DNA of 64,000 nt from Methylacidiphilum infernorum V4 (lineage in GTDB: Bacteria; Verrucomicrobiota; Verrucomicrobiia; Methylacidiphilales; Methylacidiphilaceae): the NCBI RefSeq assembly GCF_000019665.1, contig NC_010794.1, positions 434,001 to 498,000 on the forward strand, in the 5' to 3' direction. Both the position numbers and the translations under genes were made by a program. The notes beneath the pieces are model-generated. The model worked only from the letters and a program-made list of their open reading frames with translations, did no database searches and was not told the origin of the DNA. This document shows, in pieces, positions 17,397 to 27,231 of the stretch. How positions within the stretch are numbered: the first letter of the stretch is position 1; each line of letters starts with the position of its first letter.

Positions 17397-17912
17397 ATGA
17401 ATAGGACAATGTCCAACGAGATAGATACCTATGGGATTCCAGAAGATTATTGGGGAGCTTTGGATCCAGAAGCGGAAGAAGAACTTAAAAAAGCCTCTTT
17501 ATCTTATCCCGATAAAAGAAAAGTTCTTTACCATTTAAGCAGGGCCTTTGAGAAAGCGGGAGCACATATGACCGTCCTTATTGGGATGTATCGGTTTTAC
17601 TTCTATCAGAGCGATCTTCAGAAATCCCTTTACTGGGGAAAGCGGTGTGTTGCCCAGGCGGCAAAAAAATTGGGTATCAGCGAAAACTGGGAAAAATTGA
17701 CCGAAGAACATCGCAATAGATTAAGAAAGGAAGAAAGTCCGCTTGTCGACCTCTATCTTAGGGCTTTTCATGCCGTTGCCTATCTGCTGGGCCGTTTAGG
17801 AAAAAAAGAGGAAGCTTTGAAAATGCTGGAGTTGCTCTGCCAAATCGATGAGTCAAAGCAACTTGGTGCCGAGAGACTGGTAGGAATATTGATGGCGGAG
17901 GAAAACTCATGA
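17397..17912 (+). CDS. TPR-like protein of nif operon, function unknown
   Basis: 171-residue, mainly helical protein. Helix pairs such as KRKVLYHLSRAFEKAGAHMTVLIGMYRFYFYQSDLQKSLYWGKRCV and YLRAFHAVAYLLGRLGKKEEALKMLELLC resemble degenerate tetratricopeptide repeats, which usually bind partner proteins. I do not recognise a named family. The open frame extends upstream inside the Fe-S carrier gene, but the first ATG after that gene (17397; a second ATG is at 17409) is the likely start. It overlaps the LRV gene by four bases, which suggests coupled translation and a joint role. Confidence 0.7.
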   Translation: MNRTMSNEIDTYGIPEDYWGALDPEAEEELKKASLSYPDKRKVLYHLSRAFEKAGAHMTVLIGMYRFYFYQSDLQKSLYWGKRCVAQAAKKLGISENWEKLTEEHRNRLRKEESPLVDLYLRAFHAVAYLLGRLGKKEEALKMLELLCQIDESKQLGAERLVGILMAEENS

Positions 17913-18727
17913 AAGATCTTTCAAAAGAATGCTTGGATTGGGAGGGCCTGCCGGTTAACTGTGCAAGCTGTCCCCACAAGGAGTTGGAACTCAAAGGGAA
18001 ATGTCGCATGGGAGAAGCTTGTGTGCAGGATAGGTATGCAAAAAGAATAGAAAGGTTTTTCGAATGCAATCCCACCCTTGCGATCAACTATATCACCCAT
18101 CCTTATTTTGAGATCCGTGCTATTGCATTGAGGTATGTTGACGGTCATCACCAGATTCGTCTTTCCATGGATCCCGATGAAACGGTCCGGATGAGCGCGG
18201 CTTATTATGTCCCTCGGAAATTTCTTTTGCGGATGCGCTTTGATGAAAGTCGTGAAGTGCGGATAAGAGCGGCAGGTTTGCTTGAAGGGTTGGATCTTGT
18301 CCCCATGCTGATCGATCCCGATTACTACGTTAGAATCCTCGTGGCAAGAAAAATCCCCTTGGAGTGGTTGATCTTCATGGTATCTGATCCCGAGCCGGCC
18401 GTGCGCATAGAGGTAGCTAAAAGGGTAGGAGATGAGGGATTGATCATGCTTGCCAATGACCTGGACGAAGAGGTCCGGCTGACGGTCGTATCTCGATTGG
18501 ATACGAAGGAGTTAAACCGGTTTATAAACGATCCGAGCTGGAAGGTAAGGTTTGAAGTGGTTCGAAGAATCAATCCGAAATATCTTGGTCTCTTTTGTCA
18601 AGACCAGGATTCTTTTGTAAGAGAATTTGCCAAGATTCGAATGGAAGAGCAGTGGGGTTCGGCCTCATCGAATGGTTCCACAAAAGAATGGGAAAAAAAG
18701 AGTAACGATGAGAGAAAAGGATGTTAA
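17909..18727 (+). CDS. LRV 4Fe-4S leucine-rich-variant protein
   Basis: 272-residue protein like the Azotobacter vinelandii LRV protein of the nif region. The N-terminus has a 4Fe-4S binding module (CASCPHKELELKGKCRMGEAC, then CNPT). About eight helical repeats of roughly 24 residues follow, each with a DPD/DPS turn (MDPDETVRMSAAYYVP, IDPDYYVRILVARKI, SDPEPAVRIEVAKRV). The superhelix probably binds a protein partner, with the cluster at one end; function in nitrogen fixation is unproven. The end overlaps nifZ by 20 bases. Confidence 0.85.
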   Translation: MKDLSKECLDWEGLPVNCASCPHKELELKGKCRMGEACVQDRYAKRIERFFECNPTLAINYITHPYFEIRAIALRYVDGHHQIRLSMDPDETVRMSAAYYVPRKFLLRMRFDESREVRIRAAGLLEGLDLVPMLIDPDYYVRILVARKIPLEWLIFMVSDPEPAVRIEVAKRVGDEGLIMLANDLDEEVRLTVVSRLDTKELNRFINDPSWKVRFEVVRRINPKYLGLFCQDQDSFVREFAKIRMEEQWGSASSNGSTKEWEKKSNDERKGC

Positions 18728-24426: not shown

Positions 24427-24442
24427 TGTCAGTTTTTTGACA
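24427..24442 (+). promoter_or_regulatory. NifA upstream activator site of nifT operon
   Basis: TGT (24427-24429), N10, ACA (24440-24442) is an exact NifA site, embedded in a wider inverted repeat (ATTGTCA and TGACAAT). It starts 14 bases after the stop of the second A-type carrier and about 115 bases before the -24 element. The hairpin it could form in RNA may also end the preceding transcript. Confidence 0.75.
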
Positions 24443-24613: not shown

Positions 24614-24823
24614 ATGAAAATCATGGTAAGAAAGAAAGAAGCAGGAGAGATAACGATTTACATCGCCAAAAAAGACCTTGAAGAGCCGATCGTCAGCGCG
24701 GACAAAGAAGGGTTATTTGGGGGCGTGGTGACCCTGGCTAATGGAATGAAATTTCTTTTACCGGAAGTTCCTCCTGGAACGAAGTTACCCCTGACTCTAG
24801 AAGCAAGAAAGATCGAGGGATGA
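24614..24823 (+). CDS. nifT: NifT/FixT small protein
   Basis: 69-residue NifT (also called FixT/FixU). The family pattern is MVRKKEAGEITIYIAKKDLEEPIV, then GGVVTLANGMKFLLPE. It is nearly always found with nif structural genes, though deletion has shown little phenotype elsewhere and its function is unknown. Here it is not next to nifHDK but heads an operon with the DegT-like gene. Its stop overlaps the next start (ATGA). Confidence 0.9.
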   Translation: MKIMVRKKEAGEITIYIAKKDLEEPIVSADKEGLFGGVVTLANGMKFLLPEVPPGTKLPLTLEARKIEG

Positions 24824-25998
24824 CCCCTGGATTGAATCGCGGCAAAATAATGAATGGAAAGTTGATCAAGTTTTCAGATCCTGATATGACAAGTAGAGAA
24901 CTAGAAGGGGTCTATCGGGTTCTTGGATCGAGCGATTTCAGTGGCGGGGCTGAAATCGAGGCTTTTGAAAGGGATTTTGCCCGTTACGTGGGTAGGAAAT
25001 ACGGGGTGAGTTTTTCCGGGGCAAAAGTCGCTTTTTATCTTTGTTTGAAGGCCCTTGGATTGGGGAAAGGGGATACAGTGATCCTTTCGGCTTGCTCATG
25101 GAGAGAAACAGGACAGGTATTAGCTTGGGCAGAAATTGTCCCTAGGTTTGTGGATATCGACTATTGGTCTATGGCCATAGAGCCCTCGAAGATAGAAAAA
25201 GAGATCACCCCCGAGGTAAAAGCCATCATCGGATCGAATCCCAATGGGCATCCTGCCGATTGGCAGCAACTCGAGAAGATCGCCAAGGACCATTCCCTTT
25301 TTTTGATAGAGGACTCGACAGAAGCCATTGGTTGTTCTTTTAAAGGGAGGCGGGTAGGTTCTTTTGGAATTTGTTCCCTTTTTGATTTTTCGCAGCCTTC
25401 GGCTCTCGTTACAGGCAGGGGGGCGATGATCGTAACGGATTGTGAAGGGCTGGCTTCTTTGCTGAGGATACTCAGGGATCGATCCGCAGAAGAAAGGCAG
25501 TCTGTAGTAAAATCGAGGCAGCCTTATTTAGGCTGTTCAATGAGCGGCCTGGAAGCAGCGCTGGGGGTAGCCCAGTTGCAAAGGATAGATGAAATCTTGC
25601 AAAAAAGAAAAGCGGTGGAAGAATTTTACTCCCATTTTCTTTGTGGATTCGAAGGCATAAAAGACCCTTATGTTTCCCCGCAGGCAACGGAAGTCCATTG
25701 GTTTTCTTATGTCGTTCACCTGGGAACGAGATTTTCAAAGTCCAGTAGGGATGCCATCATAGAAGATTTGAGAAGAGAGAATATCGAGGCTTATCCCTAT
25801 TGTCATCCGCTGCATATGACGGGATGGGCTATAGAAAGAGGAATGCGCAGGGGCATGTTGCCGATAACCGAGAGGGTTGCCGACAGGACAATCGCCTTAC
25901 CCTTCCATGGTCAGTTGAGTTTCGAAGAAGTGGAATTTATCGTCAAAAACCTTAAAGAAGCCTCCCTTAACGTTGGAGCGGGAGCGGCTATTTACTGA
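24820..25998 (+). CDS. DegT/DnrJ/EryC1/StrS-type protein without PLP lysine
   Basis: 392-residue fold-type I aminotransferase homologue of the sugar-aminotransferase (DegT) family. Family blocks include FSGAKVAFYLCLKALGLGKGDTV, FVDIDYWSMAIEPSKIE and LIEDSTEAIGC, where Asp 165 would contact the PLP ring. The block that normally reads F-S-F-H-x-x-K is LFDFSQPSALVTGRGAMIVT; the PLP-binding lysine aligns with Ser 194. No nearby Lys replaces it. The protein should not form the internal aldimine, so it is probably not a transaminase. It is translationally coupled to nifT and followed by two unusual genes. A start at ATG 24850 is possible. Confidence 0.83.
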   Translation: MTPGLNRGKIMNGKLIKFSDPDMTSRELEGVYRVLGSSDFSGGAEIEAFERDFARYVGRKYGVSFSGAKVAFYLCLKALGLGKGDTVILSACSWRETGQVLAWAEIVPRFVDIDYWSMAIEPSKIEKEITPEVKAIIGSNPNGHPADWQQLEKIAKDHSLFLIEDSTEAIGCSFKGRRVGSFGICSLFDFSQPSALVTGRGAMIVTDCEGLASLLRILRDRSAEERQSVVKSRQPYLGCSMSGLEAALGVAQLQRIDEILQKRKAVEEFYSHFLCGFEGIKDPYVSPQATEVHWFSYVVHLGTRFSKSSRDAIIEDLRRENIEAYPYCHPLHMTGWAIERGMRRGMLPITERVADRTIALPFHGQLSFEEVEFIVKNLKEASLNVGAGAAIY

Positions 25999-26019
25999 AA
26001 TGCCAAGCAAAGGAGGGTT

Positions 26020-26253
26020 ATGCACAGCCGACCTGTTATACTGCATGTGCGGTTTGGTTCGGACGGGCAGGTGATGGAAATTGCCGAAAGACCCAAGCAT
26101 ATGTCTGCCCAGCAGTGGTTTAGCTTTCTTTGGGGAAAAGCGGGGGATAAGTTCCAAGCCTTGTCCGGGGGGAGAGGCATTTTTAGGCTTTCAGGAGAAT
26201 TTTGGGAAGAAATAAAAAAGGAAACATCGAGCCATGGACAAAACGACGGTTGA
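26020..26253 (+). CDS. Small nif-operon protein, function unknown
   Basis: 77-residue protein with no family I recognise. It begins with a beta-rich segment (RPVILHVRFGSDGQVMEIAERP) and continues with KHMSAQQWFSFLWGKAGDKFQALSGGRGIFRL, then a charged tail. It has no cysteines and no membrane segment. A strong GGAGG ribosome site and a 20-base overlap with the SIR2-like gene support it as real. Its place in the NifA-controlled nifT operon suggests it works with its neighbours. Confidence 0.65.
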   Translation: MHSRPVILHVRFGSDGQVMEIAERPKHMSAQQWFSFLWGKAGDKFQALSGGRGIFRLSGEFWEEIKKETSSHGQNDG

Positions 26254-27091
26254 AAGTGATCTCGAAGATATTTTAAAATCCCTGGAATCAGGACAGCTTG
26301 TCCCCTTTCTTGGACCTGGGGTGTTAGAACTCAGCAAAGAATCCTTTTCCTTTCCTACAAATCCGGAAATGCTTTCCGAGAGGTTGGCTTCTTTGGTTGC
26401 CGTTCCCTCGAGAATAAGGAAAAACCTTTGGAGCACCAGCCAATATATCGAAAATTACAGGCATAGAAAAACACTCAAAGCCCTTTTAAGCCAGATATTT
26501 GATGAACAAGCAGAACCCAATGACTTGCAGAAGTGGCTTGCCCGAATTCCCAAGCTACCCCTGGTTGTAGATGTGTGGTATGATTGTTCATTGAGCCTTG
26601 CTTTGAAAGAAAGGCCGTCATGGGGACAGATCCAGGGAGTGAGCCAAGCCGAATATCCGGGAAGATGGGTTAAAGCCTATGACCGAGAAGGTAAAGAAGT
26701 AGAACTGGGAGAGGCGGAGGGCTGGCAAACGGTCCTATATAAACCTTTGGGTTCGGTAAGGCCCCAAAAAAATTTTATCATATCCGATTCGGACTACGTG
26801 GAGGTGTTGACCGAAATCGACATTCAAACTCCTATACCTGACCTTGTAAAGAGGTTGAGGCAGGGAAGAAGTTTCCTCTTTATAGGGTGCCGTTTCCAGA
26901 GTCAAATTGAGAGAACGTGGGCTAGGCAGATTCTAAAGCGGTCATCCTCTTCCCATTGGGCTGTCATTTCAACTCCTCTTACAAAAAACGAAGAGCGGTT
27001 TCTTTCCGAGGCTCATATTAAACAGCTTGATTTATCCCTGGAAGACTTTTCCCGAAAGCTATTGCATTTTTATCCGGCTTTCCCTTTATAG
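26234..27091 (+). CDS. SIR2-like protein with degenerate NAD site
   Basis: 285-residue protein with the layout of SIR2_2-type domains. LVPFLGPGV at 22-30 matches the first NAD loop (usually FLGAGVS). VVDVWYDCSLSLAL matches the TNYDxxLE block, but Trp 115 replaces Asn. YKPLGSVRPQKNFIISDSDYVE matches the KLHGS...DY block, but Leu 172 replaces the catalytic His. FLFIGCRFQSQIE near 214 matches the late VGYSxxD block. The NAD hydrolase/deacylase reaction is therefore unlikely, while ligand or protein binding is possible. It ends the nifT operon. SIR2-like genes are seen in other nif clusters, but their role is unknown. Confidence 0.72.
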   Translation: MDKTTVESDLEDILKSLESGQLVPFLGPGVLELSKESFSFPTNPEMLSERLASLVAVPSRIRKNLWSTSQYIENYRHRKTLKALLSQIFDEQAEPNDLQKWLARIPKLPLVVDVWYDCSLSLALKERPSWGQIQGVSQAEYPGRWVKAYDREGKEVELGEAEGWQTVLYKPLGSVRPQKNFIISDSDYVEVLTEIDIQTPIPDLVKRLRQGRSFLFIGCRFQSQIERTWARQILKRSSSSHWAVISTPLTKNEERFLSEAHIKQLDLSLEDFSRKLLHFYPAFPL

Positions 27092-27119: not shown

Positions 27120-27135
27120 TGTAAGAAAAACAACA
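27120..27135 (+). promoter_or_regulatory. NifA upstream activator site of nifW-fix operon
   Basis: TGT (27120-27122), N10, ACA (27133-27135) is an exact match to the NifA consensus about 80 bases before the -24 element of nifW. The inner bases are A-rich and the wider flanks are not symmetrical, so it is weaker than the nifT site. Confidence 0.6.
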
Positions 27136-27214: not shown

Positions 27215-27231
27215 TTGGCATGTAACTTGCT
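27215..27231 (+). promoter_or_regulatory. Sigma-54 promoter of nifW-fixABCX
   Basis: TTGGCATGTAACTTGCT fits the RpoN consensus with GG-N10-GC, 19 bases before the nifW start codon. No other promoter is visible before fixA, so it probably drives all five genes. Confidence 0.85.

Follow-up and report, generated by a model that had tools for sequence, protein, structure and literature searches.

A DegT-like and a SIR2-like protein of nif clusters are probably overlooked nitrogenase helpers rather than the enzymes they are annotated as

A 64,000-nucleotide stretch of the Methylacidiphilum infernorum V4 genome (family Methylacidiphilaceae; hereafter the window) contains, among its nif genes, one gene for a DegT-type aminotransferase homologue (nif-DegT) and one for a SIR2-type NADase/deacylase homologue (nif-SIR2), both with substitutions at the expected catalytic positions. 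The question raised by this locus is what such a pair does in a nitrogenase gene cluster. Their database names, aminotransferase and SIR2 family protein, would point experiments the wrong way, and the nitrogenase parts list holds such uncharacterised members in many diazotrophs, including methanotrophs, Azoarcus-type and Beijerinckiaceae bacteria. The answer bears on nitrogenase assembly and on the transfer of nif clusters to new hosts.

Operon Organization and Control Signals

The operon nifT-DegT-p77-SIR2 occupies positions 24614–27091 of the window, in the gene order nifA (minus strand), two IscA-type genes, nifT, DegT, p77, SIR2, nifW and fixBACX. Its elements, all on the plus strand, are as follows.

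24427–24442, plus strand: NifA upstream activator site TGTCAGTTTTTTGACA, an exact TGT-N10-ACA, found in the same place in loci L044–L047
24556–24571, plus strand: sigma-54 (-24/-12) promoter TGGCATTTCCCTTGCT, kept in four congeners
24614–24823, plus strand: nifT/fixU, first gene of the operon (TIGR02934, 99 bits; PF06988, 89 bits)
24820–25998, plus strand: nif-DegT, predicted pseudo-aminotransferase of 392 amino acids (PF01041 match)
26020–26253, plus strand: p77, without a Pfam or NCBIfam match
26234–27091, plus strand: nif-SIR2, predicted pseudo-NADase of 285 amino acids (PF13289 match)
27120–27135 and 27216–27231, plus strand: second NifA site and sigma-54 promoter, starting a separate nifW-fixBACX operon

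A preliminary description of this DNA had placed two intact, translationally linked frames behind a NifA site and a sigma-54 promoter, and both points hold. The two control signals recur at the matching position in four congeners, the stop codon of nifT overlaps the start of DegT in an ATGA at 24820–24823, p77 begins 21 bp after DegT, and the SIR2 start falls within p77. An assembly or frameshift artefact was rejected, as the frames are intact in 10 relatives. Within the Methylacidiphilaceae the block nifT-DegT-p77-SIR2-nifW-fixBACX is intact wherever it is visible, and the one member without SIR2 is also without a close DegT. Strict patterns for the NifA site and promoter ahead of nifT gave no match in two Methylacidimicrobium-type loci, where nifS lies directly upstream of nifT.

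Replaced PLP-Site Residues in nif-DegT

By sequence, nif-DegT belongs to the DegT family (PF01041, 253.5 bits against a cut-off of 19.8). Its AlphaFold2 model (pLDDT 90.4) is closest to GDP-perosamine synthase, with a TM score of 0.86 and 28% identity to 3bn1/3dr4, and it resembles this enzyme and ArnB (the DegT/DnrJ/EryC1/StrS group) in fold and length, in retaining Asp165 and in most of the SGT loop. It differs from them in having no Schiff-base lysine, in the changes Ser to Asp and, at the O3' contact, Gln to Glu, in the loss of the GxNxRM motif and in an added NVGAGAAIY tail. Two codons mark the former cofactor site.

25312–25314, plus strand: Asp165, the pyridine-N1 aspartate, kept in 72 of 72 nif-DegT
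25399–25401, plus strand: Ser194, at the Schiff-base lysine position, occupied by Ser, Gly, Ala or Phe and never Lys, in the context FDFSQPSAL

The assignment of Ser194 to the PLP-binding lysine position, with Asp165 kept, was confirmed: Ser194 aligns with K186 of GDP-perosamine synthase, and an alignment shift that would restore the lysine was rejected because HMM, MAFFT and ordinary paralogues all give the same placement. Among the 72 nif-cluster homologues listed, which span Alpha-, Beta- and Gammaproteobacteria, Verrucomicrobia and Binatota, the position holds Ser in 40, Gly in 29, Ala in two, Phe in one and Lys in none; ordinary DegT proteins of the same order (n = 19) have Lys in 18 and His in one. 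The absence of lysine is therefore family-wide, whereas the serine singled out earlier is not itself conserved. Even within the Methylacidiphilaceae, where the motif reads FDFSQP(S/G)AL, the genus of the window has Ser and its sister genus Gly.

The remainder of the site has changed as consistently. The phosphate-binding Ser of the FSF motif, present in 19/19 ordinary DegT proteins, is Asp189 in 71/71 nif-DegT; the O3'-contacting Gln/His is Glu168 (71/71); His at position 140 (19/19 ordinary) is Asn (71/71); and the GxNxRM motif, with its neighbouring-subunit Asn/Arg, is gone. Glu164, Asp165 and Glu168 are invariant over the 72 proteins listed, and the SGT loop is mostly retained. In ArnB-type structures, the residues at these positions are established contacts of the PLP phosphate and of O3', with a further phosphate contact made from the neighbouring subunit. 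Replacement of the lysine together with the phosphate Ser, O3' Gln/His and Asn/Arg argues against an intact PLP site, and the earlier suggestion that the protein binds a PLP-like ligand is accordingly not supported.

A remodelled site may still be an active one. Invariant Lys281, Asp189 and Glu168 and several histidines could reflect a different, retained chemistry, with either the pocket (Asp165, Glu168, Asp189, Asn140, His144) or Lys281 acting on a nif metabolite, or with metal or cofactor binding, and nif-SIR2 only binding a nucleotide. Invariance of the substituted residues is what an active site would show, not a decayed one, and some DegT relatives that lack the lysine are still enzymes, namely the ColD-type His dehydratases, L038 having His at this position. 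However, the ColD-like L038 retains the phosphate Ser, where nif-DegT has Asp in all cases, and position 194 drifts between Ser, Gly and Ala, unlike a catalytic residue. With His at 194 in 0/72 nif-DegT listed and the phosphate Ser lost, nif-DegT does not qualify as a ColD/E1-type dehydratase. We regard new chemistry as an unlikely explanation, albeit one to be taken seriously.

Loss of the Catalytic Residues in nif-SIR2

The second protein falls within SIR2_2 by sequence (PF13289, 80 bits against a cut-off of 24.5). Its columns were set by alignment with 13 non-nif SIR2_2 proteins and by HMM alignment to ThsA; in the matching columns the non-nif SIR2_2 proteins of related bacteria mostly have TTNYD, TTNWD or TTNFD and KxHG.

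26576–26578, plus strand: Trp115, in place of the catalytic Asn, as in 85 of the 85 proteins listed
26747–26749, plus strand: Leu172, in place of the catalytic His, which just 3 of the 85 proteins listed retain

Both comparisons agree with the substitutions first described, Leu172 for His, Trp115 for Asn and GPGV where GAGxS is expected. Over the 85 nif-SIR2 listed, the His position varies (Leu 53, Ile 16, Trp 5, Phe 3, His 3, and others), so that the leucine is not fixed and three proteins keep His; the Asn is kept by none, and the two catalytic residues occur together in 0/85. The possibility that the KxHG histidine is located elsewhere in nif-SIR2 was rejected from the alignment with non-nif SIR2_2 proteins. 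In two Bradyrhizobium loci (L128 and L137), SIR2 lies upstream of nifB, apart from DegT, and has kept the His (KPHGS), the Asn still being Trp.

The AlphaFold2 model of nif-SIR2 (pLDDT 92.4) is nearest to the phage-defence NADases ThsA, DSR2 and KomC (7uxt/8btp; Z ∼19.9, r.m.s. deviation ∼3.5 over ∼254 residues). PADLOC gives a weak ThsA HMM match and a marginal LmuA match. Beyond the shared SIR2 fold, nif-SIR2 differs from these enzymes in the change of Asn to Trp (85/85 listed), in a His that is mostly Leu or Ile, in an extra TEIDIQTPIP loop and in being nif-linked, outside a defence context. A ThsA-like NADase function was rejected, both catalytic residues being lost. No relative of the SIR2 protein was found in viral contigs.

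The fold shared with the NAD-binding ThsA, DSR2 and KomC is also the starting point for a reading in which the two proteins are ligand sensors that control nitrogenase or NifA, SIR2 recognising NAD/ADP-ribose or a nucleotide and DegT a molecule resembling PLP or a sugar nucleotide. SIR2 expression is NifA-dependent in Rhodobacter capsulatus, where the product Rcc03262 was not found in a nifA deletion (PMC6925177); that is the one case in which control by NifA itself has been shown. Against sensing stand the change of GAGxS to GPGV, the bulky Trp in place of Asn, and neighbours that are maturation genes, not draT/draG or glnB-type regulators. As the GAGxS motif is altered, retention of NAD binding appears doubtful from the sequence, and we consider ligand sensing improbable, somewhat more so than new chemistry.

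Conservation and Distribution

When 84,980 species genomes were scanned with the SIR2 alignment, more than 500 loci emerged, of which the best 80 were used; nearly all of these 80 are visibly beside other nif genes and ∼70 have a DegT match. The preliminary description also mentions SIR2-like and DegT genes in other nif clusters. In a Rhizobiales sample of 199 genomes (nifH in 31, SIR2 in 22, DegT in 4), SIR2 was found in 21/31 nifH-positive and 1/168 nifH-negative genomes and DegT in 4/31 and 0/168, all four with SIR2. The 300 genomes of a Burkholderiales sample (nifH in 46, SIR2 in 36, DegT in 27) gave 33/46 versus 3/254 for SIR2 and 25/46 versus 2/254 for DegT, all 27 with SIR2. The associations with nifH have Fisher P values of 5e-4 to 6e-30, not corrected for phylogeny, and incomplete assembly may account for the few carriers without nifH. 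Over the 499 genomes, SIR2 is present in 31 of the 31 with DegT, the reverse not being true, and nif genomes lacking both genes exist.

In the tree, all nif-DegT sequences fall into a single, long-stemmed clade (100/100), within which those from Verrucomicrobia branch among those from Proteobacteria; the lysine was therefore most simply lost once, before the family spread with nif clusters. Plasmid-borne orthologues in Methylococcus and Paraburkholderia nif clusters are 46–51% identical, the next DegT proteins ∼30%. The dN/dS ratio is ∼0.05 for DegT and ∼0.12 for SIR2, indicating purifying selection, and since the substitutions hold family-wide, they reflect more than chance.

These results bear on whether the two genes are functionless passengers of the nif cluster, left over from a SIR2 system of the defence type and from a sugar gene. 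That the closest structural matches of SIR2 are defence NADases, and that plasmid copies are occasionally broken, would fit such an origin, but the low dN/dS, near-invariant motifs across several phyla and strict co-occurrence with nifH strongly contradict it, leaving it very improbable. Family-wide residue loss, purifying selection and invariant motifs together indicate a conserved, remodelled pair and not decay.

Among the broken copies, DegT is frameshifted on a Bradyrhizobium nodule plasmid (L056:9001–10120) and SIR2 is truncated on a Paraburkholderia symbiosis plasmid (L058:10187–10468), from which it follows that neither gene is needed everywhere; some legume symbionts seem to have lost the pair. 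In a Fibrobacteria MAG (L136:7259–7607) and a proteobacterial MAG (L123:5769–6940) the DegT match is in several pieces, through truncation, frameshift or assembly error.

Invariant Flexible Motifs

The least ordered stretches of the two models, whose overall folds are intact, include two that rank among the most conserved.

25969–25995, plus strand: C-terminal tail NVGAGAAIY of DegT, a near-invariant feature of nif-DegT that ordinary DegT lacks
26810–26839, plus strand: loop TEIDIQTPIP of SIR2 (residues 193–202), near-invariant and predicted to be disordered

The DegT end has pLDDT block means of 70 and 53, and SIR2 residues 193–196 are below 50. Invariant yet flexible segments in these models suggest docking, or folding on binding. 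The SIR2 loop is equally invariant in genomes without DegT, and a role as docking site for DegT alone was rejected on this ground. Of SIR2 positions conserved only alongside DegT, Gly143 alone stood out.

Module Partners and Proposed Role

DegT and SIR2 lie in a conserved order beside nifB-nifZ-nifS-nifT. Module membership was counted over 65 loci in which nifB, nifT and SIR2 are all visible, drawn from the best 80 of more than 500: the genes for a NifS-like desulfurase, a 2Fe-2S ferredoxin and p77 are confined to loci with DegT, and are present in 0/7 SIR2 loci that lack it. The p77 family, with the motif LSGGRGxFR, has relatives in at least 46 scanned nif loci. NifS and the NifS-like desulfurase are fold type I PLP proteins, only distantly related to DegT, that adjoin nifT-DegT in many clusters; unlike nif-DegT, the desulfurase retains its own catalytic Lys and Cys, so not every member of the module is dead.

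Loss of both ancestral chemistries and dedication of the pair to nif are well supported, and we hold them to be highly likely: the genes track nifH and stand behind a NifA site and a sigma-54 promoter, as expected of nif accessory genes. The non-enzymatic role proposed in the preliminary description stands in this respect, with both active sites lost and a nif association seen in more than 70 loci and in nifH co-occurrence; its scaffold or maturation function is a further step that we infer. Our preferred reading, to which we give a probability of roughly 0.55, is that of a nif-dedicated pseudoenzyme pair, without aminotransferase and NADase/deacylase chemistry, acting by binding in nitrogenase maturation. 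Gene order, module co-occurrence and the flexible invariant motifs are what suggest maturation.

In such a mechanism, SIR2 would be the core part and DegT an add-on dependent on it, travelling with the NifS-type desulfurase, the 2Fe-2S ferredoxin and p77. The DegT dimer would keep the fold-type-I scaffold around a PLP-free, remodelled pocket and dock by its C-terminal tail, and SIR2 would dock by its TEIDIQTPIP loop, on a shared client in maturation, possibly the NifS/NifZ/NifT Fe-S supply step or apo-NifDK. From this reading we infer non-catalysis in vitro, a physical complex, its client and the step served. A more specific and speculative version, which we think rather unlikely as it stands, makes the DegT-SIR2 complex an unrecognised maturation or protection factor, whose acid-rich former PLP pocket holds a metal, Fe-S or cofactor precursor and whose tail engages NifDK or NifS/NifZ/NifT.

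Relation to Earlier Reports

SIR2 proteins of nif clusters have been named before: besides Rcc03262, these are ZMO1821 (Zymomonas mobilis), PST_1325 (Pseudomonas stutzeri) and a Rhodovulum protein (PMC6925177, PMC8594446, PMC11332353, PMC9412634). They are likened to nif-SIR2 by annotation and nif location, and in the excerpted text of these papers no function is given, the lost catalytic residues go unremarked and a DegT partner is unmentioned. A search for nif-cluster DegT proteins in the literature returned nothing relevant, nor did the literature searched hold mutant or binding data on either protein. The nif SIR2-like protein has thus been reported already, without a function, whereas we found no report of a DegT pseudoenzyme in nif clusters.

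In Methylacidiphilum fumariolicum SolV, transcripts of fixU/nifT (Mfum_690015) rise from 164 to 2265 RPKM under N2 fixation (∼14-fold) and those of nifW (Mfum_690011) from 62 to 2260 RPKM; that expression table has no entry for the three intervening locus tags, which are probably those of SIR2, p77 and DegT (PMC3404531).

Several further genes were noted in and around these clusters. In most proteobacterial clusters, nifT and DegT are separated by the gene for a small nif-linked protein with a weak DUF6129 match (L055:8738–9001 and equivalents), which is absent from the operon of the window, where nifT and DegT overlap. Plasmids of Bradyrhizobium and Methylovirgula also carry p77 relatives that lack annotation (L060, L061). 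Finally, positions 17909–18727 of the window encode a repeat protein that resembles the LRV_FeS protein of L055 and may be of the nif-linked leucine-rich-repeat/FeS4 kind, a gene of which is N2-induced in strain SolV (PMC3404531).
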